A DNA stretch of 25,990 nt from a virus: positions 1 through 25,990 of IMG/VR virus record IMGVR_UViG_3300006923_000105, one strand, 5' to 3'. This document shows positions 5,153 to 25,967 of the stretch, in pieces; position 1 is the first letter of the stretch; each line of letters opens with the position of its first letter. Both the position numbers and the translations under genes were made by a program. The notes under the pieces were generated by a model. The model was given only the letters and a program-made list of their open reading frames with translations. It did no database searches and had not been told where the DNA came from.

Positions 5153-5157
5153 TTATT

Positions 5158-7894: not shown

Positions 7895-10716
7895 TGGCTA
7901 TTACTAAGAAAACAATAAAAAATTTAACTGGAGGAATATCTCAACAGCCTGATGCTAACAGACATGATAACCAGTGTACAAATCAAATAAATTTTCTTAG
8001 TGACCCTATCAAAGGGTTAACAAAGCGAGGTGGTACAAAGGCTATAAAGAGTTTCTCTCATTATGGTGTTACTGTTGATACTAATGTTACACCTTATCTA
8101 GACGTTTACACAGGTAGTGACGCGCACACCCAAGTTGCTGCTAAGGATTGCACTTCAGCAGTTATCCCTCACCCTTTAACAGTTGAAGGTGAGGACGAAG
8201 ATAAGAAGGCTCTACTTACAATTAGTAATGATGGCAAGATGGTTTGCCATGACTTGGAAACAGGAGACAGGATAGGTATTTATTATACTGGTGCAGGCGA
8301 TGGTGCTGAGATTCCACCTACTACAACCTACGCTGGACTGGGTGGTTATATGGCATTAAATGACCATAGTAACTATAAAGGCACTAAGTTTGCTATTCGA
8401 ACTGTAGCTGATACAACATTTATTATAAATAAAGCAGCTGAGGTAAAGATAGCAACTAGTCCTGTAGAAGCAGCTGGACCAGCTAGAGGTTTAATTTTTG
8501 TTAAGGAGGGCGCTTATAATTCTGAGTATACATGTACTGTAGAAGACAGAGATGGTGATGTTCGTACAATACGAGTTAAAACATCTGATGGTACTGATAA
8601 ATCTGTGGACAGTAAAACAAGTCTAGTTGCATTTATTATTGCTGAGTGTATTAAGATGTCTAATGGTTTTACAGGAAGCGACACAGTCACGAAGACAAGT
8701 GTCTTTGATGGCTCTACTTGGTCAAGCAGAGGTCTTACAGAGGATACTGCCATATCAGTTACAGTTAGTGGTTCAGGCTTCGAGTCAACAGAATTTCGAA
8801 CAGGGGGTGGTGTAGTAAAGCAAGAAGGTTCAGTAATTGTTGTATATGGACAATACTCCCAATACGATGATAACTCTTTCTACAATCTACCAGTAACTAT
8901 GGCTGATAGCTATGGAGATACTATGACAGAGGCTTGGAACTCAGAAGCAGAGACATTTGCAGGGCTCCCCCTTACATGTGTTCATGGTTATAAATTAAAA
9001 ATTAAAGGTAATCCTGAAAGTAAGTTAGACGATTACTATGTGAACTTCGTAGGCAGCTCAGAAGATTCAGTAGAGGTACAAGGTGGCTCATGGCAAGAAT
9101 GTGCAACTGACCAAAATTATGAGGAAGACACCACGACATCAGTTAAAAAAGCACTAGATGCACAAACCCTACCACATAAGATTATCCCTATGGAGATAGA
9201 AAATGAGTCAGCAGGTTATAGATATTTGCAATTTTCTCGCCCAACTTGGGATGACAGAGAGTGTGGTGATGAGAGAACTAACCCATTCCCTCAGTTTGTA
9301 GGAAAAGGAATAAATGATTTATTTTATTTTAAGAATCGTCTTGGTTTTTGCTCAGGAAGTACAATCACTTTAACAGAGCAAGATGGACCTTTTAATTTCT
9401 TCAGAACTACTGTAGCTCAACTACTACCATCAGATAGATTATCAATCGAAAGTAATGAGGAAGGTCACGTAAGATTAAACTATGCAGTACCTTTTGCAAA
9501 CCAAATGGTGGTATTCTCTGATAATAATCAATTTATTATTAATTATGGACCTGAAGGTCTTACTCCAGGAGCTACGTCGTTAACATCTATTGGTACTTAT
9601 GACAATTCCCCTGATGTTCGTCCTGTGGCTTTGGACAACTCTATTATCTTTGCACAAGAGAAGTCAGGTTATGCAGATATTTACGAGATGTATCCTACAG
9701 GACAAGGTGCGACTTCCTTTGAAGCACAGAGTATAGCAGAGCAAGTACCAACACTTATAAAAGGTAAGCCTGTAAGTATAGCTGTTTCATCTCTAGCGAG
9801 AACTGTAATGGTTCGCTCAGATGATGATTATAGTAAAATTTTTGTTTATAAATATTACACCAAAGGTAGGGATAGGGTTCAATCTGCTTGGATGACATAC
9901 GAAATGAATACTACTGCAGTTAAGGCTCTGATGTATGTAGATGCTGTGTGTTACCTAGTTACGTCTAGAGAAGATAGCTCAGATTTCACCCCTTCTACTG
10001 ACTACGATGCAGAATCAATACAACTAATGTCGATGAAGTTAGACAACACAGATGACACAGATTACTCACTCGATGAGTGGCACACTGATATTACTCCTGC
10101 TGGAACCTTTGGGGAGGATATTTTTGGTTACACTAAAATCACATTAGATAATAATCCAGATGATGTACACAACTACTACGCTCGTGGAACCAATACTCTT
10201 ACTTGTTTGAACTTAGCAAATGACTCTCTACAAGTAGAAACTATAATCAATGCAGATGGTTTATACCTAGAAGGAAACTTCACAAACGTTGTAACCAATA
10301 ATGTTCTTATTGGTTTACCAGTTAGCTGTGAGTATGAGTTCTCCAAGCAGTATCTGAAGTCACCAGACAATAACAATAAAATGATGTCTATAGTAGATGG
10401 TAGAACTACAGTTAAGTGGTGTGAAGTTTACATGAACAACTCTGAGTATATGGAGCTTGAGGTTTCATACCCAGGACCTGTTGATGGCGATGGTGACCCA
10501 CAAAGAGATACTACAACCAAGACATTCTCAGGGAACATATTAGGTTCCATCTCTATTGGAGATGATGCTAGTGAGACAGGTAAGTTACGTTCTATTGTCG
10601 CAGCAAGAAACTATCTTCCAGTAATAAAATTAAAATCAAATACACATAAGAAGGCAACCATTACAGGTTGTTCTTTTGAGCTAATGCTGACATCCAGACT
10701 ACGAGGAATTAGATAA
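7894..10716 (+). CDS. Tail tubular protein B (nozzle), T7 gp12-like
   Basis: Forms the hexameric nozzle of the short tail. The N-terminus TIKNLTGGISQQPD is the clear family signature (T7 SIKNLKGGISQQPD), followed by INFLSDPIKGLTKRGGT (T7 VNGWSSETEGLQKRPP). The centre carries IPQFVGKGIND-type sequence (FPQFVGKGINDLFYFKNRLGFCSG), the FFRTTVAQLLPSDRLSI segment and FSDNNQFIINYGP with LTPGATSLTSIGTYDNSPDVRPVALDNSIIF, the typical propeller core of this family. At 940 aa it is longer than T7 gp12 (794); the extra length seems to lie in the N-terminal half (about residues 130-420), which may be an added surface domain. It overlaps both neighbours by one base. Confidence 0.95.
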   Translation: MAITKKTIKNLTGGISQQPDANRHDNQCTNQINFLSDPIKGLTKRGGTKAIKSFSHYGVTVDTNVTPYLDVYTGSDAHTQVAAKDCTSAVIPHPLTVEGEDEDKKALLTISNDGKMVCHDLETGDRIGIYYTGAGDGAEIPPTTTYAGLGGYMALNDHSNYKGTKFAIRTVADTTFIINKAAEVKIATSPVEAAGPARGLIFVKEGAYNSEYTCTVEDRDGDVRTIRVKTSDGTDKSVDSKTSLVAFIIAECIKMSNGFTGSDTVTKTSVFDGSTWSSRGLTEDTAISVTVSGSGFESTEFRTGGGVVKQEGSVIVVYGQYSQYDDNSFYNLPVTMADSYGDTMTEAWNSEAETFAGLPLTCVHGYKLKIKGNPESKLDDYYVNFVGSSEDSVEVQGGSWQECATDQNYEEDTTTSVKKALDAQTLPHKIIPMEIENESAGYRYLQFSRPTWDDRECGDERTNPFPQFVGKGINDLFYFKNRLGFCSGSTITLTEQDGPFNFFRTTVAQLLPSDRLSIESNEEGHVRLNYAVPFANQMVVFSDNNQFIINYGPEGLTPGATSLTSIGTYDNSPDVRPVALDNSIIFAQEKSGYADIYEMYPTGQGATSFEAQSIAEQVPTLIKGKPVSIAVSSLARTVMVRSDDDYSKIFVYKYYTKGRDRVQSAWMTYEMNTTAVKALMYVDAVCYLVTSREDSSDFTPSTDYDAESIQLMSMKLDNTDDTDYSLDEWHTDITPAGTFGEDIFGYTKITLDNNPDDVHNYYARGTNTLTCLNLANDSLQVETIINADGLYLEGNFTNVVTNNVLIGLPVSCEYEFSKQYLKSPDNNNKMMSIVDGRTTVKWCEVYMNNSEYMELEVSYPGPVDGDGDPQRDTTTKTFSGNILGSISIGDDASETGKLRSIVAARNYLPVIKLKSNTHKKATITGCSFELMLTSRLRGIR

Positions 10717-11246
10717 TGACATGTACCCTAAACTATAAACCTACTAAAGAGGAAGTTAAGTTTATCGCTACGAATCTACAGAAAGAAGAAGTAGATGAAT
10801 TAGATATCTTTATGACCTCTCCTTCACACGCTATATTAGACAGTGTAGAAATGAGTCATGGAACAGCTACAGTCATAAGTCCTGATGGATTGCCTATAGC
10901 GATACTTGGTGTAGTTCCTATGGATGATGACTCTGGAATGTTATGGGTAATGAGTACAGAGAAAGTTAAAGCTCACTCGCTTGGTTTCTTTCGCTGCGTT
11001 AAAAAACTAGTGGAAGAACAATGTGCATTGTTTGGTAGAGTAGTATCTTACGTAGATATAGACTCCCCTGCACATCAAAAATTTACAGCAGCGCTTGGAC
11101 TTACATTAACTAGTGAAGTGCTAACAAATGCAGACAATGATAGACAGTATCTCGTGTTTGAGATGATTACTACTAAAGGTCTGGATGAACTGTTCTATAA
11201 ATCTGAGAACATAGACTACTATAGGAAACTACACAATATTAAATGA
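10716..11246 (+). CDS. T7 gp13-like internal virion protein with acetyltransferase-like fold
   Basis: A 176-residue protein in the gene 13 position. It has the layout of a GNAT-like fold: a strand IAILGVVPMDDDSGMLWVMSTEKV, a helix LGFFRCVKKLVEEQCALFGRVVSYVDIDSPAHQKFTAALGLTLTSEV, and a final strand RQYLVFEM. T7 gp13 shows the same order (FPLAIGG, CWFVTSDQV, LWNYVWVGNTSHIRFLKTIGAVF, FQLFTI). gp13 is needed for virion morphogenesis. Catalysis in this group is not established, and I see no clear acetyl-CoA loop (Q/RxxGxG/A), so an acetyltransferase role should not be assumed. It overlaps the genes on both sides by 1-4 bases. Confidence 0.8.
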   Translation: MTCTLNYKPTKEEVKFIATNLQKEEVDELDIFMTSPSHAILDSVEMSHGTATVISPDGLPIAILGVVPMDDDSGMLWVMSTEKVKAHSLGFFRCVKKLVEEQCALFGRVVSYVDIDSPAHQKFTAALGLTLTSEVLTNADNDRQYLVFEMITTKGLDELFYKSENIDYYRKLHNIK

Positions 11247-11527
11247 ATAACCCCCTCAAAGCCCCACTAGACAATACGAAGCTCTTTATGGGTATCGCAA
11301 CCCCTGTCATTGGCGTATTATTTTTCTTCTTCTCTTTACAATCTGATATTGCAGCAAATTCTGAGAAGATACAAGCAAATACAGCGAGTATTGAATCCCT
11401 TGAAAACAAGGTGGATAATATATCAGCCAATGTTAACGAATTAAAGACAGACGTAAAGGTGATGGTGGTGGAACTATCTCACTTAACAGACACTATTCAC
11501 AGAATAGAAAAACACTACACTGAATAA
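11243..11527 (+). CDS. Small membrane protein with coiled coil (94 aa), holin- or spanin-type candidate
   Basis: Starts inside the end of the gp13-like gene (ATGA) and ends overlapping the gp14-like start. It has a short N-terminus (MNNPLKAPLDNTK), one membrane segment at about residues 14-32 (LFMGIATPVIGVLFFFFSL), then a 60-residue heptad-rich coiled coil (SEKIQANTASIESLENKVDNISANVNELKTDVKVMVVELSHL). One N-terminal membrane anchor plus a periplasmic coiled coil fits an i-spanin; a small holin-like protein or an ejected membrane factor are alternatives. T7 has no gene between 13 and 14, so this is an insertion into the internal-virion cassette. Function is not proven by sequence. Confidence 0.75.
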   Translation: MNNPLKAPLDNTKLFMGIATPVIGVLFFFFSLQSDIAANSEKIQANTASIESLENKVDNISANVNELKTDVKVMVVELSHLTDTIHRIEKHYTE

Positions 11528-12201
11528 TGAACCAAATAAACTTTTTAGAATTTCTAGGTATTGGACCAATGCCTGGCACGAATGGAGCAGGGTTACCAGG
11601 CTCTACGCTAGCGCAGATGCCAGCAGCTGGAGGAAGCTCTTCTCCTTGGACAAGCTCTAACATAGCAGCAGGGGCAGGCGTAGCTATGGGGCTTATAGAG
11701 GGATATGCAGCAAATAAGATTTATAAAACTCAGCTAGAGATTAGAGGTATAGAAAAAGATATTGCTAATATGCAGTCAGAGGGTAGAAGAGATGAACAGT
11801 TGAGAACAATTTATAAAAAGAAAGAGATGGCTATGGAGGCTATCGCAGAAAAGAGTAAGTCAGATAACGAGAAAATGAAGCAAAATGAATCTATGGCTAG
11901 AGTAGCTATGGCTGCTAAAGGTTTCGCAGGTGGTGCATCAGCAGGGGAAGCTCGACAGGCTTTAATTAATGCTCGTATGAAGCAAGAACAACTCAACTTA
12001 AACGAGTGGTCAAATACAGAAGAGATGGCATTGATAGCTAGGTCAGGAGTAGAATCTCAGTACATTTACGAGAGAGCTTCAAACGCAATACGACCTATGA
12101 TTGACTTTCAAGCTCCAAACGTAGGGCAAGCAGGATTAGACATGATGATAGCATACTCTAAATATAAGAATTTTTTAACTGACCAAGGAGATATAACATA
12201 A
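11527..12201 (+). CDS. Internal virion protein B, T7 gp14-like
   Basis: At 224 aa (T7 gp14 is 196) this matches the gp14 type in length, position and design. There is a Gly/Ser/Pro-rich flexible N-terminus with a hydrophobic stretch (SNIAAGAGVAMGLIEGYAA, residues about 44-62), then a long Gln/Met/Lys/Glu-rich helix (QLEIRGIEKDIANMQ, KKKEMAMEAIAEK), a conserved-looking GGASAGEARQALINAR turn, and a short C-terminal helix. In T7, gp14 is ejected with gp15 and gp16 and forms the outer-membrane part of the DNA-ejection channel. It overlaps the next gene by one base, so gp14- and gp15-like proteins are probably made in coupled fashion. Confidence 0.85.
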   Translation: MNQINFLEFLGIGPMPGTNGAGLPGSTLAQMPAAGGSSSPWTSSNIAAGAGVAMGLIEGYAANKIYKTQLEIRGIEKDIANMQSEGRRDEQLRTIYKKKEMAMEAIAEKSKSDNEKMKQNESMARVAMAAKGFAGGASAGEARQALINARMKQEQLNLNEWSNTEEMALIARSGVESQYIYERASNAIRPMIDFQAPNVGQAGLDMMIAYSKYKNFLTDQGDIT

Positions 12202-14078
12202 TGGCATTTCGCTTCGCAGATAAATTCGAGCCTAACATGGCATGGACAGGGCTAAGTAAATCCCTAAGCCAAGCTATGGCACAGGTAGGTCAGATGAAAC
12301 AGATGGAACAGAAGGAGTCTATGGCTCACGAAACCCATCAACGAGAAATGAATCAACTTCTAGGTCTTAAGGACCAAGGGTTAATGACAGGAGAAGAGTA
12401 TAATACAATTTTAGATAAGGCTAATGCTGACGCACAAGAGTCAGGTGCTATTAGAGCTTACGAGAATTTCTCTATGTACGATGAATTAGATAAGTCACGA
12501 GCTAACATTAGGCTTAATGCTTTAGATTCTTACTTGAACACCCCTGAAAACATAGCTTTAATGACACATGTTACAGACGCTGTGTCCCCAGAAGCCATTA
12601 CTCAGAAGTGGGTACAAGATAACGAAGGGAAAGCTATTGGTAAAGACTTAGCAGGAGATGATGTCTTCGCTACAGCATCTGGTAGACCCTCAGAGTTAAT
12701 TGCATTTAGTTCTGGACTACAGTTAAAGCAACTAAAGCTTGCTGTTGACTTAGATAAGGTTCGTGTCGCAAACGCTTTAGAAGTAAACGAAGGACTTTAT
12801 GGTATGGAAATAGCTAAGCATATGAAGGCTGGCTCTGATTCAGAGGCTCTGCAAGCTGTAACAGCTAAGTTCAAGGGTATGGGTGTTACAAATCTTAACG
12901 CTCTTACACTTACATCAGCAGCAGATATCATGGACAACTGGGTAACAACTCTGGACCCTGAAGAAGCTCTGGATAAAATAAATTTATTAGAGTATCAACT
13001 AACACAACAATCTGAAATGAGACCAGGAGCAGGTATCTTTGCAGCTGAAGGAACAGAGAATGGTTATAAACTAACTAATGCAGCAGACGCAGCTCGCACA
13101 GCAGTTAGAACTCGCAAGACAGCCCTAGCAACAGCGCGTAAGGCGCAAACTACAGAAGCAGAGCGTGTTTACTCAAACATACAGTGGGACTCTCTAAACA
13201 CCCTTGCTAAGGCTAACAATGGGATTATAACTGACACTGATAAGGCTTCCTTTAAGCAAGCTTTACTTGAAGATTTAAATCAACCTATGTACGTTTTGTT
13301 CGATAAGTCTGCAATTATAAAAGAATTTGATAACTTTATGGATGCATTAGACGTAACTGAAACACATGAGGAGTATGTTGCAACTTATACAACCCTATTT
13401 ACTCGTAATCAGTTAAACGAATCACAACTACAGTCTATGGTTACAGGTGTTCGTGTAGACTTTAACGAGCAAAAATTAAATTATAAAGAGTTTGATTCCC
13501 TTATGTCAGAGCTTGACCAAAAGATTAGAGCAGTTCGAACAGATAAAACTACATCTTTACAAGCTACTTTAGAGAAAGAAGGTAGCATGGGTTGGACATC
13601 CCTACCCTCAGATACACTAACTGAAACAGAAGACCTATTAAAAAGTAATAATTATTCTTATTGGGACTCAAGCTCTGAAACATTTAAGACTGCAGGTGGT
13701 AAAGACGACATGTACTTCAGGTCTTTCCAACGTGGTGCGACAGAGTACGCAGAGGACCTATTAGATGCAGGATTATATGGTGGTTCAGTACCTGCGCCAA
13801 TATTTACTCCATTTACTGCTGAGGAGATACTCATACTACCTACTTTAGGTGTCCCTCCAGGAGATATCGAATATAACCAAGGATTACTAGCAAAAGAGTT
13901 CGTAGTTCAAAAAGCTCCAACTACAGTGAAAGAATCACGTAGATACTATCGCCAAGCAGTAAAACAAGCTAGGGCTTATGCTGCAGTACAAGCGTACAAA
14001 CAACTACTATACTTTAATCAAAACCCAGAGTTTAAAGCAGGACTAGGTACAATAAAACCTTCCACACTAAATAAATAA
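12201..14078 (+). CDS. Internal virion protein C, T7 gp15-like
   Basis: A 625-residue, helix-rich soluble protein (T7 gp15 is 747). In T7 it lies in the internal core and forms the periplasmic tube of the ejection channel. Sequence support is mainly architectural: N-terminal FEPNMAWTGLSKSLSQAMAQVGQMKQMEQKE helix, repeated long amphipathic helices, no Cys-rich or enzymatic motifs, and its exact place between gp14- and gp16-like genes. I see no membrane segment. It is shorter than T7 gp15 while the following gp16-like protein is much longer, so material may have shifted between the two (inference). It ends two bases before the next start. Confidence 0.85.
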   Translation: MAFRFADKFEPNMAWTGLSKSLSQAMAQVGQMKQMEQKESMAHETHQREMNQLLGLKDQGLMTGEEYNTILDKANADAQESGAIRAYENFSMYDELDKSRANIRLNALDSYLNTPENIALMTHVTDAVSPEAITQKWVQDNEGKAIGKDLAGDDVFATASGRPSELIAFSSGLQLKQLKLAVDLDKVRVANALEVNEGLYGMEIAKHMKAGSDSEALQAVTAKFKGMGVTNLNALTLTSAADIMDNWVTTLDPEEALDKINLLEYQLTQQSEMRPGAGIFAAEGTENGYKLTNAADAARTAVRTRKTALATARKAQTTEAERVYSNIQWDSLNTLAKANNGIITDTDKASFKQALLEDLNQPMYVLFDKSAIIKEFDNFMDALDVTETHEEYVATYTTLFTRNQLNESQLQSMVTGVRVDFNEQKLNYKEFDSLMSELDQKIRAVRTDKTTSLQATLEKEGSMGWTSLPSDTLTETEDLLKSNNYSYWDSSSETFKTAGGKDDMYFRSFQRGATEYAEDLLDAGLYGGSVPAPIFTPFTAEEILILPTLGVPPGDIEYNQGLLAKEFVVQKAPTTVKESRRYYRQAVKQARAYAAVQAYKQLLYFNQNPEFKAGLGTIKPSTLNK

Positions 14079-14080
14079 TT

Positions 14081-17000
14081 ATGACTAATTTTCAAGACCC
14101 TATTATGTCGCCACGAAATGTTGCGATGCTACAGAAGAACTTCAAAAGAATGGGAATACCAGAGAGCGAATGGGGAACTTCACAAGCAAACTTCGAGTCA
14201 TACGCTAACTGGTTAGCTGAAGTAGAATCTACTAATGACCCTAAAGCGTCAAGAGGAGCTGACTTAGACGTAGCCCAAGGACTTTATCAGTACCAATTAG
14301 ATACGACAAAGACAGACAGAAATAGATTATCTGGACCTACTTTAGGATATGACCAGGAGTTTATAGATAGTATAGGGGATGACCCTACGAAGTGGACACG
14401 TGAACAGTCAGACGCTATGATGATTGCAGGTCACTTTGTTGAGCCTGGAACAGATGCTAGAATTAGACCAGTTCTAATGTCTAAGGATAAAACATCAGAT
14501 GAGTTTAGAAGTTCTATACAACATTCTTACTTGAAGAATCACATGAGAGATGAAGACCAGTACAAAGAAGACCTTACGCAGAAAAACTTAGACAGAGCTT
14601 GGGGAGTAATGACTGACCCTAATGACCCTAAATCATTTACAGGGGTAGACAAAACTACAGTACCAAATGAACAAATAGATGAAGGTGACGTTTCTCTAAA
14701 ACAGAGCTTGATTGATGCTCATGGTATGTCAGAGGAAGAAGCAGAAGCTTGGATTCAAGCAAACCCAGAAGCAGTGCAACAGGAGGCAGTAGGTCCTTTA
14801 AGTCAAGCTATACTAGATACAAGTACTCCAGTTACAGAGGAGCCAGGTGAAGTTAATATCCTAGGAGATATCTCTGACCCTGAGACAATGGAGAAAGCAT
14901 ACGAAGTAATTAGGGACATGACTAAGTACAGTGCAGATAACGAAGTAGTGAATCAAGTGCTAAGTACCTTAGTAGACCCTGATACCCCTTTAACCCCAGA
15001 GAACTCATCAATGTGGGCTCCTTGGTTAACACCAACTGCTAAAGGTAGAATGATAGGTGCTATTGAAGCATCTCAGAATCCACCTGAAGAAACTTACGAC
15101 ACTTGGAGAATAGTTAAAACAGACCCTAACTTCCAAGACCATGTACTATCGAACAATCGTGTTCAAAATCTACAGGATTATATTACAAAGCTAACTCATG
15201 GTTCACCTGAAGCTAACTTCAATTTAGTCGCAGCTGAGTTGTATATAGACTTAGGAAAGCTTATAGGTCGTAACTCAGTAGAGGCATTAATATCTCAACC
15301 TGAGTTCCTAAAGTATGCAGGTAGTGTTCGAGGTCTGAAAGAGATTTCTGATGCTATGCAGATTCACCTAGAGTTTAATGGTCGTAACTTTGAAACAGAA
15401 CCACTACTGCAAGGTGACTTAGATAAATTTAAATTCCCTGAGATGCGTGGTCAACGTCCATCTAACGAGATTGGATTCACTGATGAACAGTATGAAAACT
15501 TTAACCTTCTACAGAAGGGTGGTTATAACGTATATCAAGCTTTTTACTCAGCAGGTAAAGCGTTAATGCCTAACTTCTTAGAGCCAGAGAAGCAACTAGA
15601 TAGAAGTATCGCTCCTATTGGAGACATGGTTGGAACTATGGCTGGCTTTATGATAGGCATGAAAGGTATAGATAAGTTCCTGAAATTTAAATTACCTGCC
15701 TTTGGTCAGTTAAATCAATGGGGGAGAAACTTCATTAATGGAGCTCTAATGGATATGTACTACTCAAGTGCAGAAGAAGGTAACATGTCTCGCATGATTA
15801 AGGAAGAGTTTCCTGACAGTGCAGCAGCTAATAACTTTTTAGTTGAGTGGTTAGCCACAGATATTAACTCATCTAAATGGGAAGCCATGACTAAAGAAGC
15901 CATCGAAGGTGGTATTATAGGTGAATCCTTAGGAATGATGTTCATGATAGCTAAGTGGGGTACAGGTGGTACTCGTCGTGGGATAAATAAAATTATAAAG
16001 AAGGCTGGAGATACTCAAGTATGGCAAGGCATGAAGCAGAGGGTAATCAACCTTGACATCATGGGTGAAATAGAGTCAGCTTGGGGTTCAAAGAACTGGA
16101 AGAACAAGATGATTCGTGGGGATGATGATTGGAAAGGTCCAAGAGGTCCAAGGATAGGGATGACCATACAAGCGATGCCTGACCCTGGCGATATAGACCC
16201 TAAGAAGATGTTTAAGCGTATTCAAGAGCTCGAAGCGAAGGATAAGCTTACGCATCGTGAACGACTTGAATTAGACTTCCTTAAGCCTGAGTATGAGAAT
16301 CATCCAGACATAGTGTTCTTAAAGAGCCTAGAGGAAGATATGAAGCAGATAGAGATTTCTGATGCTGCTGACGAGTTCAATAAAGACGTTGATAGAATTG
16401 CAAAACGTGTAAGTTCAGAAGATTGGTCTAGAGAGGATATTGAAAAGTGGGTTAAATGGGATAATGAACGCCTAGCCCTAGAGGCTGATTTAGACGACGC
16501 TATTGATTTAGATGTCGAAGGTGAGATGGATAGCGCAGCAGCAGCACTAGCGAAGCACCATGATATACAACCAGCTAACCCTTATGACACAACTATTCCT
16601 ACTGTACGAGACCTAAATACAGACCTTGGTACACATAGCGAGCTCAACAACAGGATAGAGGGTGAGGTTGAAAAGTATAAGGCTGAGATGGTAAGACACG
16701 ATGTTGACATACAAATCTCCAGGTTAAAGCAACTAAGAGATGAGTATAATAAAGAGTGGACTGACAAGCAAATACGAGAGCATGTAGAGCAGTCACAACT
16801 TAAACTCATCTACGCTGTTCAGGTAGATGAACTCCTTAATGCAGAGGATGTAGATGTAAAGGCAATTAAGGATATAAAAGATAAATTTCTTGATGTCTCT
16901 CAGCGCGAGTTAGATAACCCTGTTTGGAAGGCAACAACAACACCTCCAGCACTCGAGCAAGCTTTTGAGCTCTTAGATGAGTTGGAGAGATTAGATATAG

Positions 17001-20000
17001 ATGAGTTTATAGATATACATACAAATCCACTTAGAAGAGTTCAAGAGTTAACTCAAGCTGAAGAAGACTGGTATTACAATACACTATTTGGAGATTTGCG
17101 TGACAAGTTTGATGAAATGGACGTATCAAACGCAGAGATAGGTGTCTACCTACGCTATCTTGCAAGGAAGGCGAAGTTAGATGACCTCGCTATGAAATGG
17201 TATAAGGAGGGGCTGCCTAATTCTGATGAACGTGTGGGTAAACTTGCGCAGCTATTTGACGATTTAGAGGCAGAACATGGGGATAAATGGAAACCAGATG
17301 ATAGCTACCTAACCCCTCAGCAGCTGGATGATATGTACAATGAGATTCCTGAAATTGAGGATTTGGACACTCTATTTAATAAGCCTGCTTACGTCAGTGA
17401 GGAGGAGTTAGTTGAGGAAGCTGCTAAAATCTCGAAGAGGTCATTCGATAACATTGAAAAACATGCTAAAGATAACCAAGCTATGGTTGAGCTTAAGGAG
17501 ATGGATACTCCAGAATACTTAATGCACATTACGTGGGCACAGACAGCAAGACTGTTATGGAAGGCAGCGTCAGATGCTAATTACAAGGGTGAGAAGGAAT
17601 TATCAAAAAAGCTTATGGAAAGATTATATGATTTTATTGATAGTGATATGTCACGCAACATAGACCAGAGTTGGAAGGACGCAGAGATAAATAGGCTTAT
17701 GAACATGGAAGTTAATAGGCGTACAGACATGGAAGGCGCTCCAGACTTCATGGGTGATAAAGAAGGAGGCTTCTTAAACCTATTTAAAGGTAGGTCTTGG
17801 CGAGGTGCGAAAGGTAGACTTCCTAAGTTTGGTCGAGCAGCAGAAGAAGGAGAAGCCCCTAAAGATAACTTCATGGACCCTAATGATGAGTTCAGCGATG
17901 ATGCTTTAGTACAAGCTTCTAATGAGGCTGAGGGGACAGGTGCTCCTACTATCCTAGAACCTGGAAGTGTTAAAGGTGGTGAACCTCCTGTAACTCCTTT
18001 CAAGCAAGGTCCTTGGGACGAATTGCCTGATGATGCAAAATATGAAAAATTTGTTAATGCGTTAGAACAATATGATGCAAACCCTTCAAGTATAGAAAAC
18101 AAAGTACGACTAGAATACTACTACACTCAGTTATACAAGTCTAACCTAGAGCCTGGCTCTCGTGAAGCTCACTTACTGAATGTTAAGGATGTTGAAGGTG
18201 GTACTCAATTTAAAGATTGGGATAAGTCCCATAGAATGAACAGTCGTAAACAGGCTGATAAAATCCTAAAAGAGTTTGAACCTATCCTAGATGCTAGAAC
18301 AGCACAACGTATCGCAACAGGTATCGAAGAAGGTGCTGAAGATATGGTGTTGGAGGTAGAAGAAGCATTACTTAATAGGGCTCTGAATCGTAAATTCGAT
18401 TCTAACCTTCCTAAGAATTGGGAGGAGCTTCGAGCTTACGCTAGAGCAGGAGGCAGAAACAAGCTTGTAGATAAGTTTGCTATGGCTTGGGAAATAGCAT
18501 CTACAGTAATGGTGTCAGCTAAACTATCATCGTTTGGAGTATTGAAAGCAGCTGCTATTGGTGGACCTATGATAAGAGGGTTAGATAAACTAGCAGAAAG
18601 GTTTGGTACAGGTCCTGTTAAGCTGTGGAGACACATGAAAGGACTAGAAACTTATAACTATAAAAACAAGAAAACTCCTAATAAGCTAGGCGAGGCAACA
18701 CATAATGCTTGGGTAGTCCTCACAGGTGGACGTGCGTATACAGGTGATGCCATGACAGACGCTGTGAATCTTTTACGAGGAATCCACTCTATGTCAGCTC
18801 CATCAACAGTTGACGCTGGGTTGTTAGAGAAGTCTGACACTGCTCTAGGTTCAGGCTTAGCTTCAGGCTTTGACGAGACTTTAGAAATGGACCCTGCAGG
18901 GTTATCACGCTTAGGTGTAATATTGAATGGTATCGAAAGTGATGGAGTTAGAGGTCCATTGAAGGTTATTGGTGCTGTGATTGAATTAGCTGGCAAGAAG
19001 GGTTTAACAGTTATAGATGAATTTATGAAAACCATGGTATATGAGAACGAACTTAATCGTCAGTTCCTAGTACAGATGGAAGGAATCATGCGTAGCTCAT
19101 TTAATGAGGCAGGTCCAGCAGCTAAGAAGATTGCTGAACTATTTAACCAAGTAGAGGATTTCGATGAAGAGTCATGGGCAATAATTGCACAAGAGATGGC
19201 TCATGTGTTTGCAGTAGGTAAGCCTCAGAACTTTGACGAGATGCTTAATATCTTAATGAAGCTTGATGTTGAACTAGGTGGTAAAGAGAGCTTGATGATT
19301 GGAAGCGACATAAAGGACCAGGTTGCTAAACGTGGTGACGCTGCTCGTAAGGCATGGGCTTTACTAGCTTCGTTTACAGGAGATGTACACGATAAGGAAG
19401 TTATTTTTGATAGGTTCCAAACTGTTGCTGATGGAGCAATGGAATACACACGTCGTATCGCTTTAACACAAGACCCTATTGAAGGTGTTGGTGGTGTTAT
19501 TGCTAAGCTACTTGATGTAGGTCATACTGCTCCAGGTCGTATTGCTAAGCCATTTATGCGTACAAGTGTAAACGCTGCTACTGTAGGTGTTGAACATGTA
19601 CCACTTGTTAACTTTTTATTAAAGCAAGAGAGACAATTACTTCTCGACTTGAAGGCAGGAACAGGTTCATCTATTGACCAATCACGCATGGTAGGTCGTA
19701 TGATGTTGGGAACAACTCTTATAGGAGGTGTTAATTATCTGTTTACTCCAGACCATGAGGTCACAAAGGACACAGGTATATATGTCAAACAAGAAATAAT
19801 GCCATGGGGTCCACGATATTCACTATCAATCCCTATGACTGATGGTTTTGAAACTCAGAAGGCTGAGCATTTAACTAACTTCTACGTACAAAATAAAGGA
19901 CAAGTAGATATAGAGATGCAACGTGCAGGCTTCGAAGGAAACCCTGTTGACTTCCTAGACTCACTACTACCTGAGATTAAAGAAGCAAAGGATGGAAGAA

Positions 20001-21091
20001 TTTCACTAGACTTCGAAAGAGCTACTCCATTGGATATGATAATGAGAGCGTCAGCACTAGTAGGTGACTGGGCATCTGACTCAAAGTCTATGACACTAGA
20101 AGAGCAAGAGAAGCAGAACATGTGGTTAAGTAATATCATTGATGTATTTGAAGGCGTTGGCTACTTGGAGGTAGTTGACCCTCTATCAGGTGTCTTTGGT
20201 GATTACGATGGAGCTGCTGAAGCATGGTTTTGGAACTCCCTATCACAGTCTATAAACTTAGGCTATGGCTTGGGTCGTAGTCCTGGAGAGCCATTCCAGC
20301 CAGACTTTAAGGTAGGTAAAGAAGCATCAGACGCAGAGAAAGCTTTCTTTAATACTATCGCAGGAAACCTAACAGGATTAGGAGACCCTGATAGCTTGAT
20401 GAAGCGAAGAAATGTCTTTGGGCACGTTGAACCTGCTAGTAGCAGAGCTTTTGGATTGATGAAATCTGAGGTAGAGATGGGTGTGATTGACCAAGAGTTT
20501 ACTGCACTAGGTATGTATAAGAAACATCCTAAGCCTACAGGCGTTGTGGACTTTGATGGTATTAATCTAACAGGATTTAAACTCATTACAGAATCTGAAA
20601 CTCATAAAGAGTTACTTCCTTCTCCAGGTGTGAACGCTTACGAGGATTGGCAGATACTTACAGGTTCTGCAGGAAGAATAGTAAGAAACCCTAGAGGTAC
20701 AGATGTGGTATTAGACTCTTCTTGGAAATCAATGACTGGTTACTTAAAGACTAAGGAATATAAAGAACAAAAAGAAATATACCTTCGTCAGTTTGAAAAA
20801 GGTTTAGAAGATATTCCAGTGGAGCAAAGACTACGTGTTGAGGCTGAGTCTGAAGAAGCTAGAAAGAAGATTGATAAAAAAATAAATAAGATTCTACGTC
20901 AAGGTAGAGAGACAGCTTCTACTCGATTAAAAGAGATGGCTAATCTTTATTACAGCGAAGAAAAACAAATGTTCTTATCTGAGCTACTAAAGGTACATAA
21001 ACAAGCATCAATGGAAGCTAACCCTAATAATCCAAATACACAACCTTTGGATGCAGGTAGCTTCAGTGATATGTTAGAAGGAGAATATTAA
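14081..21091 (+). CDS. Giant internal virion/ejection protein, T7 gp16-like with N-terminal lytic transglycosylase-like domain (2336 aa)
   Basis: Occupies the gene 16 position but is about 1,000 residues longer than T7 gp16 (1,318). N-terminal region: EVES with Glu49-Ser50 and GLYQ at 67-70 reproduce the Glu-Ser ... Gly-Leu-x-Gln pattern and approximate spacing of Slt-type lytic transglycosylases, suiting local peptidoglycan opening during ejection. Residues about 510-530 and 608-627 are hydrophobic. Residues about 690-1320 are very acidic, charged and helical. About 1340-1400 is a Gly/Pro-rich linker. About 1465-1510 and 1873-1890 are hydrophobic again, with PFMRTSVNAATVGVEHVPLVNFLL at about 1824-1847. 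That last element resembles conserved blocks of large polyvalent/ejected phage proteins (memory, unchecked). The C-terminus is a basic helix. The start is AT-rich (AATAATTATG) without a ribosome site. It probably forms the inner-membrane end of the ejection channel. Confidence 0.85.
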   Translation: MTNFQDPIMSPRNVAMLQKNFKRMGIPESEWGTSQANFESYANWLAEVESTNDPKASRGADLDVAQGLYQYQLDTTKTDRNRLSGPTLGYDQEFIDSIGDDPTKWTREQSDAMMIAGHFVEPGTDARIRPVLMSKDKTSDEFRSSIQHSYLKNHMRDEDQYKEDLTQKNLDRAWGVMTDPNDPKSFTGVDKTTVPNEQIDEGDVSLKQSLIDAHGMSEEEAEAWIQANPEAVQQEAVGPLSQAILDTSTPVTEEPGEVNILGDISDPETMEKAYEVIRDMTKYSADNEVVNQVLSTLVDPDTPLTPENSSMWAPWLTPTAKGRMIGAIEASQNPPEETYDTWRIVKTDPNFQDHVLSNNRVQNLQDYITKLTHGSPEANFNLVAAELYIDLGKLIGRNSVEALISQPEFLKYAGSVRGLKEISDAMQIHLEFNGRNFETEPLLQGDLDKFKFPEMRGQRPSNEIGFTDEQYENFNLLQKGGYNVYQAFYSAGKALMPNFLEPEKQLDRSIAPIGDMVGTMAGFMIGMKGIDKFLKFKLPAFGQLNQWGRNFINGALMDMYYSSAEEGNMSRMIKEEFPDSAAANNFLVEWLATDINSSKWEAMTKEAIEGGIIGESLGMMFMIAKWGTGGTRRGINKIIKKAGDTQVWQGMKQRVINLDIMGEIESAWGSKNWKNKMIRGDDDWKGPRGPRIGMTIQAMPDPGDIDPKKMFKRIQELEAKDKLTHRERLELDFLKPEYENHPDIVFLKSLEEDMKQIEISDAADEFNKDVDRIAKRVSSEDWSREDIEKWVKWDNERLALEADLDDAIDLDVEGEMDSAAAALAKHHDIQPANPYDTTIPTVRDLNTDLGTHSELNNRIEGEVEKYKAEMVRHDVDIQISRLKQLRDEYNKEWTDKQIREHVEQSQLKLIYAVQVDELLNAEDVDVKAIKDIKDKFLDVSQRELDNPVWKATTTPPALEQAFELLDELERLDIDEFIDIHTNPLRRVQELTQAEEDWYYNTLFGDLRDKFDEMDVSNAEIGVYLRYLARKAKLDDLAMKWYKEGLPNSDERVGKLAQLFDDLEAEHGDKWKPDDSYLTPQQLDDMYNEIPEIEDLDTLFNKPAYVSEEELVEEAAKISKRSFDNIEKHAKDNQAMVELKEMDTPEYLMHITWAQTARLLWKAASDANYKGEKELSKKLMERLYDFIDSDMSRNIDQSWKDAEINRLMNMEVNRRTDMEGAPDFMGDKEGGFLNLFKGRSWRGAKGRLPKFGRAAEEGEAPKDNFMDPNDEFSDDALVQASNEAEGTGAPTILEPGSVKGGEPPVTPFKQGPWDELPDDAKYEKFVNALEQYDANPSSIENKVRLEYYYTQLYKSNLEPGSREAHLLNVKDVEGGTQFKDWDKSHRMNSRKQADKILKEFEPILDARTAQRIATGIEEGAEDMVLEVEEALLNRALNRKFDSNLPKNWEELRAYARAGGRNKLVDKFAMAWEIASTVMVSAKLSSFGVLKAAAIGGPMIRGLDKLAERFGTGPVKLWRHMKGLETYNYKNKKTPNKLGEATHNAWVVLTGGRAYTGDAMTDAVNLLRGIHSMSAPSTVDAGLLEKSDTALGSGLASGFDETLEMDPAGLSRLGVILNGIESDGVRGPLKVIGAVIELAGKKGLTVIDEFMKTMVYENELNRQFLVQMEGIMRSSFNEAGPAAKKIAELFNQVEDFDEESWAIIAQEMAHVFAVGKPQNFDEMLNILMKLDVELGGKESLMIGSDIKDQVAKRGDAARKAWALLASFTGDVHDKEVIFDRFQTVADGAMEYTRRIALTQDPIEGVGGVIAKLLDVGHTAPGRIAKPFMRTSVNAATVGVEHVPLVNFLLKQERQLLLDLKAGTGSSIDQSRMVGRMMLGTTLIGGVNYLFTPDHEVTKDTGIYVKQEIMPWGPRYSLSIPMTDGFETQKAEHLTNFYVQNKGQVDIEMQRAGFEGNPVDFLDSLLPEIKEAKDGRISLDFERATPLDMIMRASALVGDWASDSKSMTLEEQEKQNMWLSNIIDVFEGVGYLEVVDPLSGVFGDYDGAAEAWFWNSLSQSINLGYGLGRSPGEPFQPDFKVGKEASDAEKAFFNTIAGNLTGLGDPDSLMKRRNVFGHVEPASSRAFGLMKSEVEMGVIDQEFTALGMYKKHPKPTGVVDFDGINLTGFKLITESETHKELLPSPGVNAYEDWQILTGSAGRIVRNPRGTDVVLDSSWKSMTGYLKTKEYKEQKEIYLRQFEKGLEDIPVEQRLRVEAESEEARKKIDKKINKILRQGRETASTRLKEMANLYYSEEKQMFLSELLKVHKQASMEANPNNPNTQPLDAGSFSDMLEGEY

Positions 21092-21093
21092 TA

Positions 21094-22986
21094 ATGGTAT
21101 CTTACAACTCTAGAGTTTTTTATACTGATATTAACTGGAATAAGAGTACCTATGCTTTTAGTTTTCCTTATACTGATACAGATTATGTAAAAGTTTATAT
21201 TGATGGCAATGCTTTGCCTCATGATTTTGGTGATGGTAATGTGACATATGTCGTCGCAGGTTTGGCACTCATTTCACTAAGCAATTATACAGAGGCTATT
21301 GATGGTATGGATTTAGAGATTCGTAGAGAGACATCACTAACTCCTGACGTTGATTTTGTAAATGGGACTACACTTACAGAAAGTGACTTAGATGGAGCTG
21401 TAGCACAGTCTCTACATCTCGCAGTGGAAGCTAAAGATAACACAATAGGTTCTCTTTCTTTGGACCCTGGTGGAGTATATCTTGATGCTGATAACGACCA
21501 AATTAAAAATTTAGCAGCAGGTACTGCCACAACAGATGCTGTAACTAAAGCACAACTTGATGCAGGAGGAACAGCTACAGTTGCTAATACAGCAGCTCTT
21601 ACATTACTTAACAAGACAGATAAGACTGAAGGCTCTGCTCCTAAGTATGACTCAGATGGCAACATAACATTTACTTCAAATACTAAACTTGAGAATATTA
21701 CAGCAGGTTCTAATGCTGCAAGTGCAATTAATAAAGCGTATGTCGATGCTCGAGTGTCTGGGATACCAGATGGTGGTATTGGTACAGATACGATAGCAGA
21801 TAGCGCTGTTACTACAGCTAAGATTGCAAATGATAATATCACTACAGCTAAGATTGCAGATGATAATGTCACTGAAGATAAGATAGCAGATGGCGCTGTT
21901 ACTTTTAGCAAACTCGCAGGTAATTCAGTTACAGCAGCTGCAATCTCAAACAACGCAGTAGGTTCAAGTGAGCTTAGCGCTGATTGTGTGACAGAAGCTA
22001 AGATAGCATTTGCTGCAGTTGGTACAGGTCAGATAGCAGAAAATGCAGTTACTATTTATTCTATGGCAAATAACTCTGTTGGTACATCTGAGATTGTAGG
22101 AAGTGCAGTGGAGACAGGTAAGATAGCAGACCTGAATGTAACCAGAGCAAAGATAGCAGATGGTGCTATTAATACAGACAAGGTAGCACCTGATGCTATA
22201 GATGGTACTAAGATTGCTGATGATAGTATTGATAGTGAGCACATAGCAGCAGATAGTATTGATACAGAACATATAAGTGATGGCGCTGTAGATACAGATG
22301 CTATCGCGTTATACTCAGTTAATGCACAAAGGCTTTCAACTGGCTCTATTGCAACAAGTAAGTACCAGGATAATTCAATCACTAACGATAAACTGCAAAA
22401 TGGGTGTGTTGAACATTTAACCCTCGACCTCGATAGTGTTGGCAGTTCAAATATAATAGATGGTTCTATTGATGCTGTTCATCTTTCTTCTGATTCAATT
22501 CAAACAGCAAAGATAGTAGACCAAGCTGTTACAAATGCTAAACTTGCTATTGGAGTTATTGCTAATGATAAGTTTGCTTCTATGCCTGCTTCAACTATCA
22601 AGGGTAATAACGCTGGAACAGGTGGACCTCCTCTAGATTTGACAGTAGCCCAGACTAATACCTTATTAGGTGTAGATTTGAAGTTAATGCCTAAAGCATT
22701 TGGCTCTTTTACTACAGTAGCAAGTCCTGTTGTATCAGGCGAATCATTTAATATCTCAGGAGTAACTCAGGTATCTACTGGAAGATACACAGTTAACTTC
22801 ACTGATAATATGTCAGATGTAGGTTATACAGTAACTGTAAGTTACATGGACTCATCTGAAACTATTTTTTTATGTATGCTATCATCTAAAGCAGTAGGTT
22901 CTTTTAACATTTCTCTAAAGGATGCTTCAGGTACCTTATCAGACGCTAGTGAAACAGTAGACATAGTAGTACACGAATACGTATAA
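21094..22986 (+). CDS. Tail fibre protein with T7-type anchor domain and decapeptide repeats
   Basis: Receptor-binding fibre, 630 aa. Residues 1 to about 115 are the T7 gp17-type tail-attachment domain: YAFSFPYTDTDYVKVYIDG, LEIRRETSLTPDVDFVNGTTLTESDLDGAVAQSLHLAVEAKD (T7 [43 protein letters not shown]). Residues about 140-160 match the LDARGRRIVNLANAVDDRDAV-like step (LDADNDQIKNLAAGTATTDAV). Residues about 229-500 are roughly ten-residue repeats of the type KIADgAVTtd, expected to form a trimeric beta shaft. STIKGNNAGTGGPPLDLTVAQ is a linker common in phage fibres. Residues 532-630 form a beta-rich tip domain (PKAFGSFTT ... SDASETV) that recurs in the next gene. AAGGAG at 21078-21083 is its ribosome site; the stop overlaps the next ATG. 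Confidence 0.93.
   Translation: MVSYNSRVFYTDINWNKSTYAFSFPYTDTDYVKVYIDGNALPHDFGDGNVTYVVAGLALISLSNYTEAIDGMDLEIRRETSLTPDVDFVNGTTLTESDLDGAVAQSLHLAVEAKDNTIGSLSLDPGGVYLDADNDQIKNLAAGTATTDAVTKAQLDAGGTATVANTAALTLLNKTDKTEGSAPKYDSDGNITFTSNTKLENITAGSNAASAINKAYVDARVSGIPDGGIGTDTIADSAVTTAKIANDNITTAKIADDNVTEDKIADGAVTFSKLAGNSVTAAAISNNAVGSSELSADCVTEAKIAFAAVGTGQIAENAVTIYSMANNSVGTSEIVGSAVETGKIADLNVTRAKIADGAINTDKVAPDAIDGTKIADDSIDSEHIAADSIDTEHISDGAVDTDAIALYSVNAQRLSTGSIATSKYQDNSITNDKLQNGCVEHLTLDLDSVGSSNIIDGSIDAVHLSSDSIQTAKIVDQAVTNAKLAIGVIANDKFASMPASTIKGNNAGTGGPPLDLTVAQTNTLLGVDLKLMPKAFGSFTTVASPVVSGESFNISGVTQVSTGRYTVNFTDNMSDVGYTVTVSYMDSSETIFLCMLSSKAVGSFNISLKDASGTLSDASETVDIVVHEYV
21781..22600 (+). repeat. Degenerate 30-base coding repeats of the fibre shaft
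   Basis: About 25 copies of a roughly 30-base unit coding for ten residues of the KIAD-x-AVT type; phrases such as AAGATAGCAGATGG recur. The clearest pair is 21811-21840 and 21841-21870, identical except for two bases, which indicates a recent tandem duplication. Repeat number may vary between relatives and alter fibre length. Confidence 0.85.
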
Positions 22987-23444
22987 TGAGACACACACAT
23001 CCCTCAATTCAACAAGCTCAGCTTAGACGAACAGATATCAGTACTGACGTAGATGCAAACGTAGTAGCAGTTGCAGCTTTACCTGTAGGGCTATCAGGTT
23101 TTGAAGCTCGTATAGCAGCTCTTGAGGCTAAGATGCAGTTCATCCCTAAAGCGTTTGGTAGATTTACAACAGCTGACCCTGCTGTGTTACTAGGCACAAG
23201 CTACAACGTGGCTTCTGTATCTCGTGGTGCAACAGGTCAGTATTCAATAGTTATCGACACAGACCTCTCAACTGCCAATTATACAGTTCTTTTGAGCTAT
23301 GAGGATGCTACTGCTACTATCCAAACTATAAGTGCCAACACTCTAGCTACTACAGGATTTAATGTTGGCTTAAGAGATTCATCTAACGCTTTCTCAGACG
23401 CTTCTGAGTCAGTAACATTCGCAGTATTCGAGAACAACACATAA
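22986..23444 (+). CDS. Small tail-tip protein sharing the fibre's C-terminal domain
   Basis: A 152-residue protein whose residues 54-152 align without gaps to residues 533-630 of the fibre upstream. Both contain PKAFGxFTT, TGxY, YTVxxSYxD, TI, FNxxLxDxS and SDASExV; by hand I count about 39 identical positions in 98. The N-terminal 50 residues differ and contain a short heptad stretch (SGFEARIAALEAKMQ) that may trimerise it. The start overlaps the fibre stop (TAATG). It is probably an accessory receptor-binding or fibre-cap protein derived from duplication of the fibre tip. A non-structural role cannot be excluded. Confidence 0.8.
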   Translation: MRHTHPSIQQAQLRRTDISTDVDANVVAVAALPVGLSGFEARIAALEAKMQFIPKAFGRFTTADPAVLLGTSYNVASVSRGATGQYSIVIDTDLSTANYTVLLSYEDATATIQTISANTLATTGFNVGLRDSSNAFSDASESVTFAVFENNT

Positions 23445-23448
23445 TACC

Positions 23449-23751
23449 ATGAAACCTAAAATTAGAATTTTTTTAATAAGCCTAGTACTATCAGGATGCT
23501 CTGCGATGAGTCTCTGGGAAGCAGGTGCACTTGGAGCTGGAGCAGGAGTTGTCACAACGATGGTTCTAGATGACGACGCTGATATCATTGTAGATGGAGC
23601 AGCAGTTCAAACAGCAGAGAGCAACGCATTTAGCTTGCTTGAAGTTATCATAGAGAACGCATGGAGTATTACGTTAATTATGTTATTACTTTGGATGCTT
23701 CCTTCACCTGCACGTATTATTAATAAAATAAAAACTTGGAGAATAAAATGA
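23449..23751 (+). CDS. Lipoprotein with C-terminal membrane helix, candidate unimolecular spanin or lysis protein
   Basis: A 100-residue protein with two membrane attachment signals. The N-terminus MKPKIRIFLISLVLSGC is a lipoprotein signal peptide with lipobox L14-S15-G16-C17; Ser18 favours the outer membrane. Near the C-terminus, about residues 66-84 (ending SITLIMLLLWML) form a membrane helix followed by a basic tail (RIINKIKTWRIK). About 50 residues lie between. This layout (outer-membrane lipid anchor plus inner-membrane helix) defines u-spanins, which fuse the two membranes at the end of lysis. In T7 the holin gene 17.5 occupies the corresponding place between fibre and small terminase, so a lysis role is supported by context; a holin-like activity is the alternative. 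Its TGA overlaps the next ATG. Confidence 0.75.
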   Translation: MKPKIRIFLISLVLSGCSAMSLWEAGALGAGAGVVTTMVLDDDADIIVDGAAVQTAESNAFSLLEVIIENAWSITLIMLLLWMLPSPARIINKIKTWRIK

Positions 23752-23945
23752 ATAAAACAGATTCAGATGACATATACAACTTAATGCTAAAGCAACTAAA
23801 GAAAGCATTGGGAACAGAAGAGCCTAACTTAGGGGCTATTAGACTAGGACTAGAGTTTATTAAAATGTTCAGCCTAGAAGAAGAAATGAAGGGGTCAGAT
23901 GTGGAAACTTTCATATCAAGCCTTCCCTTCAAAGAAGATGAGTAA
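23748..23945 (+). CDS. terS: Small terminase subunit, T7 gp18-like
   Basis: A 65-residue, acidic, helical protein immediately before the large terminase, the position of T7 gp18 (89 aa), which helps recruit concatemeric DNA for packaging. Visible features are two helices (DDIYNLMLKQLKKALG and GAIRLGLEFIKMFSLEEEM) and an acidic end. Similarity to T7 is mainly positional. I chose ATG 23748, not the upstream TTG at 23736, because GGAG at 23738-23741 sits six bases before it and it makes an ATGA overlap with the preceding gene. It overlaps the large terminase by eight bases. It is short for the family, so a missing N-terminal portion or marked divergence is possible. Confidence 0.65.
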   Translation: MNKTDSDDIYNLMLKQLKKALGTEEPNLGAIRLGLEFIKMFSLEEEMKGSDVETFISSLPFKEDE

Positions 23946-25446: not shown

Positions 25447-25453
25447 AAAAGAT

Positions 25454-25477
25454 GCTAGCTTTTTGTATGAAGCTAGC
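25454..25477 (-). terminator. Reverse-strand intrinsic terminator downstream of the minus-strand cassette
   Basis: GCTAGCTT (25454-25461) and AAGCTAGC (25470-25477) form a perfect 8-bp stem with an eight-base loop. Read on the reverse strand it is followed by ATC and then TTTTTT (plus-strand A-run 25445-25450), so it ends leftward transcripts, just short of the terminase gene. On the forward strand no T-run follows. Confidence 0.7.
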
Positions 25478-25504
25478 GAAACATCCTAATTCATTTACTT
25501 TAAC

Positions 25505-25522
25505 TCGCTATTAGGTAAGCGA
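25505..25522. repeat. Short inverted repeat around ATTAGGTA
   Basis: TCGCT (25505-25509) and AGCGA (25518-25522) flank ATTAGGTA. ATTAGG also occurs in the leaders at 2647 and 6075, each time within or beside an inverted repeat. It could be a shared control element, but the sequence around it is not conserved. Confidence 0.3.
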
Positions 25523-25538
25523 TAATATGAAAGAGCCA

Positions 25539-25814
25539 CTACTGCTCAGACTCTTCTTCCACTAAGCGTCTGAGTTCTGCTACTTGTAGTCGCAGCTTAT
25601 GTGTTGACTCAGCTAGCTTCTCACACTCAATAATAGTAGGATGCTCTGAGACAGATTCTAAGGGGGTATAGAGAGACGTTCGTGAGGGACAGGTGTGAAC
25701 AGTCCACATTGCTGTAGCGAAGACTGAGTAGCCTAGGAAGCACCCTAGAATGCAAATGTTAAGAAGCTCAATAGTAACATGTATATTAAAATATTTATTT
25801 AGCCATTCATACAT
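25539..25814 (-). CDS. Reverse-strand small membrane protein with coiled coil (91 aa)
   Basis: A 91-residue protein read leftward: short N-terminus (MYEWLNKYFNIHVT), one membrane helix at about 17-39 (LLNICILGCFLGYSVFATAMW), a linker with Cys42, then a C-terminal charged helix with heptad character (ECEKLAESTHKLRLQVAELRRLVEEESEQ). It is judged real because the ribosome site GGAGGTGAT, nine bases fully complementary to the 16S tail, lies five bases before its ATG. That ATG also overlaps the stop of a small gene upstream, and a reverse-strand hairpin terminator follows. Single-helix anchor plus coiled coil suggests a membrane-associated lysis, exclusion or host-takeover protein; none can be named. 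Its orientation against all other genes is unusual for a T7-like phage. Confidence 0.75.
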   Translation of the reverse strand: MYEWLNKYFNIHVTIELLNICILGCFLGYSVFATAMWTVHTCPSRTSLYTPLESVSEHPTIIECEKLAESTHKLRLQVAELRRLVEEESEQ

Positions 25815-25921
25815 TATGCATCACCTCCCATAAGGATGTCAAAGATGTCTTCTAGGTCAGGTTCAATAGGTGCTTGGTTGTTAGCCAAGACAGGACAGAG
25901 TGGTAATGAGATTTCTTTCAT
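25814..25921 (-). CDS. Reverse-strand small acidic protein (35 aa)
   Basis: A 35-codon frame read leftward from ATG at 25921 to TAA at 25814-25816: hydrophobic beginning (MKEISLPLCPVL), then acidic (EPDLEDIFDILMGGDA). An in-frame TGA stands two codons before the ATG, so it cannot begin earlier. It has no ribosome site; a TATAAT at 25934-25929 is so near that a transcript from it would start about at the ATG and be leaderless. Its last codons contain the strong ribosome site for the 91-residue gene, so it may serve mainly as a leader for that gene. Function unknown. Confidence 0.5.
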   Translation of the reverse strand: MKEISLPLCPVLANNQAPIEPDLEDIFDILMGGDA

Positions 25922-25928
25922 GGTTCAT

Positions 25929-25934
25929 ATTATA
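25929..25934 (-). promoter_or_regulatory. Possible host-type -10 box for the reverse-strand cassette
   Basis: TATAAT on the reverse strand, seven bases before the ATG at 25921. At 17-bp spacing the -35 would be TAGCAA (25957-25952), a weak match to TTGACA. It lies next to the forward terminator stem. Confidence 0.35.
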
Positions 25935-25935
25935 T

Positions 25936-25967
25936 AGGGGTCCAAGATAGATTGCTACCCCTTTTTT
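25936..25967 (+). terminator. Forward intrinsic terminator at the end of the late block
   Basis: AGGGGT (25936-25941) pairs with ACCCCT (25957-25962); inside, CAA/TTG can add three pairs around the loop GATAGA. The outer stem is followed by a T-run to 25967. It would end rightward late transcripts after they have crossed the reverse-strand cassette as antisense. Confidence 0.65.

Follow-up and report, generated by a model that had tools for sequence, protein, structure and literature searches.

The ejection protein of phage T7, gp16 (1318 aa; internal virion protein D), has no cysteines and is encoded between gp15 and gp17. It carries two putative membrane regions that flank a DNA-binding hub (PMC8954989). 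The same review gives gp16 lengths of 609-1337 aa (PMC8954989), and 20 other gp16-position proteins that we sampled from Autographiviridae, with the split gp16 gene of Peat1 counted as one, range from 1032 to 1528 aa (mean 1283, SD 108). Here we describe a window of 25,990 bases, the whole of the stretch analyzed and an IMG/VR virus record, in which one open reading frame (14081..21091, plus strand, as are all features below) encodes 2336 aa without an internal stop codon. A preliminary description of this DNA had remarked that the protein is nearly double the length of T7 gp16 and takes more than a quarter of the window. Both statements are borne out, as the ORF fills 27% of the window and the protein lies +9.8 SD above the sampled lengths, beyond both the published and the sampled range. 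It is a genuine size outlier and probably a variant of the gp16-type ejection protein.

Genomic context and the marine gp16 family

The window carries genes for an RNAP (cut at the left end), a RusA-like resolvase, portal gp8, scaffold gp9, capsid gp10, the tail tubes gp11 and gp12, a gp13-like protein (10716..11246; PHROG 308, internal virion protein), a 94-aa ORF, a fibre and TerL. The giant ORF follows a gp14-like gene (11527..12201, 224 aa) and a gene for a gp15-like tunnel protein (12201..14078, 625 aa), both named by position, both orphans and both free of cysteine; the gp15 found no homologue in phages by tblastn. Immediately downstream lies the gp17-like tail fibre gene (21094..22986), whose product has a Phage_T7_tail N-terminal domain. 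The order portal-scaffold-capsid-gp11-gp12-gp13-gp14-gp15-gp16-fibre-TerL is shared with T7 and with T7-like phages from the sea, CRP-227 included, and the giant ORF thus occupies the gp16 position. The closest matches to gp12 come from pelagiphages and roseophages (about 25% identity), suggesting that the host is probably an alphaproteobacterium. The window gp12 (7894-10716) is itself long, with 940 aa compared with 763-871 in the sampled phages, has 14 cysteines and also appears to hold extra sequence.

It had been pointed out that the gp15-like partner is shorter than in T7, which is correct (625 versus 747 aa) yet misleading, since the gp15s of marine relatives with a normal-size gp16 have 505-582 aa. 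The proposal that the ejection machine is divided differently is for this reason not supported, and we rejected on the same grounds the idea that gp16 compensates for a short gp15. A fusion with gp15 was rejected because a separate gp15 is present upstream. Ahead of the gp16 ATG (14060-14083) there is no Shine-Dalgarno-like sequence, whereas gp15 and gp17 have AAGGAG, and gp16 translation may be coupled to that of gp15, whose stop is 2 bases upstream. A further AAGGA (16150-16162) stands five bases 5' of an in-frame ATG at gp16 codon 694, close to the start of the acidic stretch described below. One such site per 7 kb is about the chance expectation, but an internal start giving a 1,643-aa product is conceivable here.

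A profile of five gp16s (CRP-227, CRP-114, CRP-361, S28C10 and the IMG/VR relative V040959) matched the giant protein with a full-sequence E of 3.8e-24, in two co-linear blocks. Block A (residues 505-654; 15593..16042; domain E 1.6e-17) is Gly-rich and moderately hydrophobic. Block B (residues 1628-1894; 18962..19762; block-level E 7.9e-9) has a DEF-K motif and the landmarks IDEFMKTMVYE ... KPFMRTSVN ... VGRMMLGTTLIGGVNYLF. PHROG 6651 (internal virion protein, 1375 positions) matched within both blocks, at residues 552-625 and 1804-1858, the latter match covering its positions 940-995. Full-length tblastn against 50,697 phage records returned three Roseobacter phages only, with 5% of the protein covered, in genes annotated as internal virion protein D or hypothetical. 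The giant protein is thus homologous to gp16-position proteins of marine phages, its homologues (the CRP phages, S28C10 and relatives) having about 1,180-1,330 aa.

Similarity to the core of T7 gp16 (hub and TMH regions) was undetectable, even for the marine family profile; as a control, T7, K1F, K466, ErraS and other distant gp16s gave near-zero or negative scores against this profile. The marine gp16 family is thus tied to T7 gp16 by synteny and the transglycosylase domain and not by core sequence, and the giant protein belongs with the marine family instead of being a T7 gp16 orthologue by sequence. Its initial designation as a gp16-like ejection protein is supported by gene order, the two homologous blocks and the absence of cysteine, with homology to the T7 core not detectable. 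IMG/VR searches with the whole protein, segments 1591-1890 and 1-200, gp12 and TerL returned near-identical contigs only, and the capsid added two relatives (43-46% identity) on short contigs. The portal (39% identity) was the one query to reach IMG/VR relatives whose gp16 is complete (1211 and 1232 aa); the 1211-aa relatives seem to be one lineage in several contigs, and two lineages were measured. No relative was found in 84,980 bacterial and archaeal genomes by the peptide patterns used.

A probable SLT-like domain at the N-terminus

The N-terminal 125 residues (14081..14455) matched a profile of viral SLT homologues, from which the window, T7, TRX32-1 and their near-copy had been left out, with 18.5 bits and E=5.6e-5 among 714 segments. 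In this ranking the giant N-terminus stood just behind the SLT domains of TRX32-1 and T7, and the best non-SLT decoy had E=0.1. We confirmed the residues of the Glu49-Ser50 ... Gly67-Leu-Tyr-Gln70 signature reported at the outset, which reads E49-S50...P54-x-A56...G67-L-Y-Q70 (14225..14290) and has its catalytic glutamate at E37 in T7 gp16 and E29 in TRX32-1 gp16. Farther on, M114...H118 (14420..14434) lines up with MYLAHQQ, a motif of SLT homologues, H118 sitting 69 residues past Glu49. The Glu-Ser pair, GLxQ and this third motif are all in register with the homologues, and E49, A56, A65, G67, Q70, M114 and H118 are invariant in the alignment with 11 viral SLT sequences.

The Pfam SLT HMM (PF01464) gave no match above cut-off at the N-terminus. 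AlphaFold returned a pLDDT of 38.7 without an alignment, and 53.4 with a pTM of 0.41 when given an SLT alignment, which biases the model towards SLT. This low-confidence model (14081-14590) had no fold match in the PDB, the matches returned being meaningless, and its sole match below E=2 in BFVD was A0A516LAH5, a 165-aa viral protein (E 0.0088, TM 0.52, 24% identity). A lone weak MuF match in N-terminal tblastn (E=0.6) was judged to be chance. The silence of Pfam and the poorly modelled fold, together with several homologous gp16s that have no SLT domain, would suit a reading in which the surplus has an architectural role only, lengthening the periplasmic tether and enlarging the core spacer to match a host envelope or a wider head, while the N-terminus is non-enzymatic and ES...GLYQ coincidental. 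We consider this unlikely given the independent profile match, the separate M114/H118 register and the N-terminal location of the domain, as in T7 and TRX32-1. It is also opposed by the rarity of the strict motif, which never arose when residues 1-200 were shuffled 200,000 times and arose 5 times when the whole protein was shuffled 30,000 times, figures that serve as a guide only because the pattern was drawn up after seeing it. The suggestion of a transglycosylase-like N-terminus therefore stands on the profile match and not on Pfam or a confident fold. From sequence comparison, we regard the N-terminus of the giant gp16 as a likely SLT lytic transglycosylase domain.

Surplus sequence, charge and cysteine content

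Relative to the family profile the giant protein has a surplus of about 1,050 residues, of which about 383 lie before block A, 560 between A and B and 104 after B. The surplus is therefore spread over three places and is not one insertion at one site. Most of the N-terminal part falls in residues 126-504 (14456..15592), for which no homologue was detected. The expanded inter-block region (residues 655-1627; 16043..18961) is about 560 aa longer than in relatives, and the C-terminal tail (residues 1895-2336; 19763..21088) has no match to the family profile. Neither 126-504 nor 655-1627 matched anything in Pfam, PHROGs, NCBIfam, PADLOC or PDB sequences, and in all about 1,700 residues match nothing. 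A phmmer match to UGT71AP2 (E=0.02) and matches to SAM_PNT and SH3BP4_C fell below cut-offs and were set aside as chance or compositional. Internal duplication was rejected because self-similarity is absent.

Hydrophobic peaks, taken as Kyte-Doolittle means over 19 residues, reach no more than 1.0-1.35 at the best positions (509, 606, 1476, 1627, 1793, 1829, 1870 and 2014). The membrane-type segments proposed near 513, 609, 1465 and 1873 are thus weak, and with a maximum of 1.35 the term 'transmembrane' is a guess. Gly-rich hydrophobic stretches lie within the two blocks (509-527, 606-624, 1829-1847 and 1870-1888), and by analogy they may fit the two putative membrane regions of T7 gp16. The peak near 1476 is outside both blocks. 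A Gly/Pro-rich stretch does exist, although it is located at 1201-1300 (20% G+P) and not in the linker placed at about 1340-1400 (11% in 1301-1400).

The middle of the protein is acidic, as had been noted, but the very acidic part covers about 410 and not 600 residues. Residues 700-1110 (16178..17410) carry a net charge of -12.4 per 100 with 25.5% D+E and are nested in a moderately acidic region, 655-1290. The most acidic 400-residue span of the giant protein (-13.0 per 100) is the lowest of 21 gp16s, and the N-terminus of CRP-114 gp16 reaches -10.8.

The 560 or so residues more than in relatives, and an acidity unlike the near-neutral matching region of those relatives (-3 to +2 per 100), could be read to mean that the sequence added between blocks A and B forms an effector cargo of its own, which enters the cytoplasm with the channel protein to act on host targets, as has been proposed for polyvalent proteins and is known for the N4 RNA polymerase. 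If the acidity mimics DNA, it would be apt for a factor that inhibits DNA-binding proteins of the host, and the region is cysteine-free like other ejected proteins. With 54 basic residues per 411, however, the acidic stretch would resemble an ordinary charged helix. Relatives do not have the region, so no conserved active site is visible, and it contains no domain in any library, nor the metallopeptidase or ART of polyvalent proteins. A search of the giant gp16 for a polyvalent or RNAP domain found none. We judge cargo of this kind to be rather improbable, and the added cargo like that of polyvalent proteins suggested earlier finds no known domain in the Pfam, PHROGs, NCBIfam, PADLOC and PDB-sequence searches. 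Similarly doubtful is the narrower proposal that the 973 inter-block residues include an effector module, possibly acidic and DNA-mimicking, delivered through the phage's own DNA-entry channel. If true, gp16 would be a carrier like the N4 vRNAP within an otherwise ordinary T7-like virus.

The giant gp16 has no cysteine in 2336 aa. The portal, capsid, gp11, gp12 and fibre of the window together have 25 in 2609, a rate that predicts 22 for the giant protein (P about 2e-10). For the extra segments alone the figures are 0 observed and 14 expected (P about 8e-7). The same absence extends across the sampled ejection proteins, with 0 cysteines in 14,202 aa of gp15 (20 proteins) and 1 in 27,627 aa of gp16 (21 proteins), or 1 in 41,829 aa when pooled. 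Cysteine makes up 0.4-1.25% of gp8, gp10, gp11, gp12, gp17 and TerL, while the gp9 scaffold has 0 in 4,084 aa, gp14 has 0 or, often, 1 per protein and gp6.7 of T7, annotated as injected, has a single cysteine among its 88 aa. Beyond the T7-like phages, the N4 virion RNA polymerase (0 in 3,500 aa), N4 gp51 and gp52, and P22 gp7, gp20 and gp16 are all without cysteine. Our literature searches, which covered open papers and among them papers on ejection proteins, found no statement of a cysteine-free rule for ejection proteins; an earlier remark on the cysteine-free N4 vRNAP may exist. The absence of cysteine is likely to reflect passage of the unfolded chain down the tail, followed by refolding within or across an oxidising periplasm. 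Since the extra segments carry this signature of ejected proteins, their delivery along with the core is probable. If cysteine-freeness holds widely, it would provide a simple marker for proteins threaded unfolded through a phage tail, and could flag injected effectors that are as yet unknown.

The ORF itself is well supported. A second contig, IMGVR_UViG_3300010150_000311, covers 7761-25990 of the window at 99.8% nucleotide identity and holds the giant gene intact, at equal length and with zero net indel; a third contig matches the left part of the window. The two copies of the gene differ at 15 codons (5 synonymous and 10 non-synonymous). Twelve of these differences are packed into residues 1411-1439 (18311-18397; 29 codons) with the frame kept, and may represent local recombination or a strain variant. 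The unusual length and this local clustering of differences between two assemblies might point to a chimera, artefact or fusion from assembly or sequencing error, but this is hardly credible given the identical length and frame in an independent contig, the fairly even codon-position GC that resembles the neighbours, the cysteine codon counts (0 in frame 0, whereas the two alternative frames have 42 and 104), and the lack of repeats or self-similarity.

Proposed role and comparison with known systems

Overall, we favor the reading that an uncultured T7-like podovirus from the sea probably uses the giant protein as its gp16-type ejection protein, in which the standard two-block core is accompanied by large lineage-specific expansions. 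This is based on its position, the two co-linear blocks, the N-terminal SLT profile match and the absence of cysteine. Packaging, ejection order, peptidoglycan cleavage, membrane topology and the enlarged tether and hub are inferred from T7 (PMC8954989), and the transfer of topology is made in the face of an undetectable core homology. By analogy with T7, several copies would occupy the top of the internal core before leaving through the portal and tail, unfolded and disulphide-free. The SLT-like domain would then cut open the peptidoglycan, with residues ~126-504 running alongside the gp15 tunnel as a long tether in the periplasm. Block A would provide the first inner-membrane segment and block B the second. 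The 973 residues that separate the blocks would make up an enlarged hub, which faces the cytoplasm and grips the DNA as it enters. Most likely, then, the added sequence serves a bigger tether and hub and not a separate enzyme.

Among known systems, the gp16s of Roseobacter phages CRP-227, CRP-114 and CRP-361 and of uncultured Votkovvirus S28C10 share the position, the co-linear blocks A and B and the lack of cysteine, but they have 1181-1334 aa, about 1,050 fewer residues, and no SLT domain was detected in them. T7 gp16 has an N-terminal SLT-type signature too, and differs in length and in a core without detectable homology; about 440 residues follow block B in the giant protein, whereas TMH II of T7 (1119-1290) lies near the end (PMC8954989). 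The gp16 (1257 aa) of Rhizobium phage vB_RleA_TRX32-1, an alphaproteobacterial T7-like phage, likewise combines an N-terminal SLT with the gp16 position, but is of normal size, has an SLT that Pfam recognizes and shows no core homology to the CRP-type profile. The portal gene of this phage, which is recorded as induced from a lysogen, is annotated as two adjacent CDS (4812-6008 and 6022-6477).

Of the giant proteins known to be ejected, the N4 virion RNA polymerase gp50 (3500 aa) is likewise very large and cysteine-free. Delivery through a podovirus tail, as for gp50 and other giant ejected proteins, is predicted for the giant gp16. In contrast to gp50, which carries an RNA polymerase, the giant gp16 has no RNAP match, and RNAP is encoded by a gene of its own at 1-1359 of the window. 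Polyvalent proteins (PMC5512222) resemble it in being large, probably injected with the DNA and allowed a lysozyme-type domain, but are defined by disparate recognizable enzymatic domains, at least two in one polypeptide, and the giant gp16 shows the SLT-like domain only. With the giant gp16, the observed upper limit for T7-type channel proteins rises from about 1,530 to 2,336 residues. Comparison with its relatives shows which parts are kept, the two putative membrane blocks, and which can expand, a split that would allow deletions to test how the DNA-ejection machine divides its tasks.
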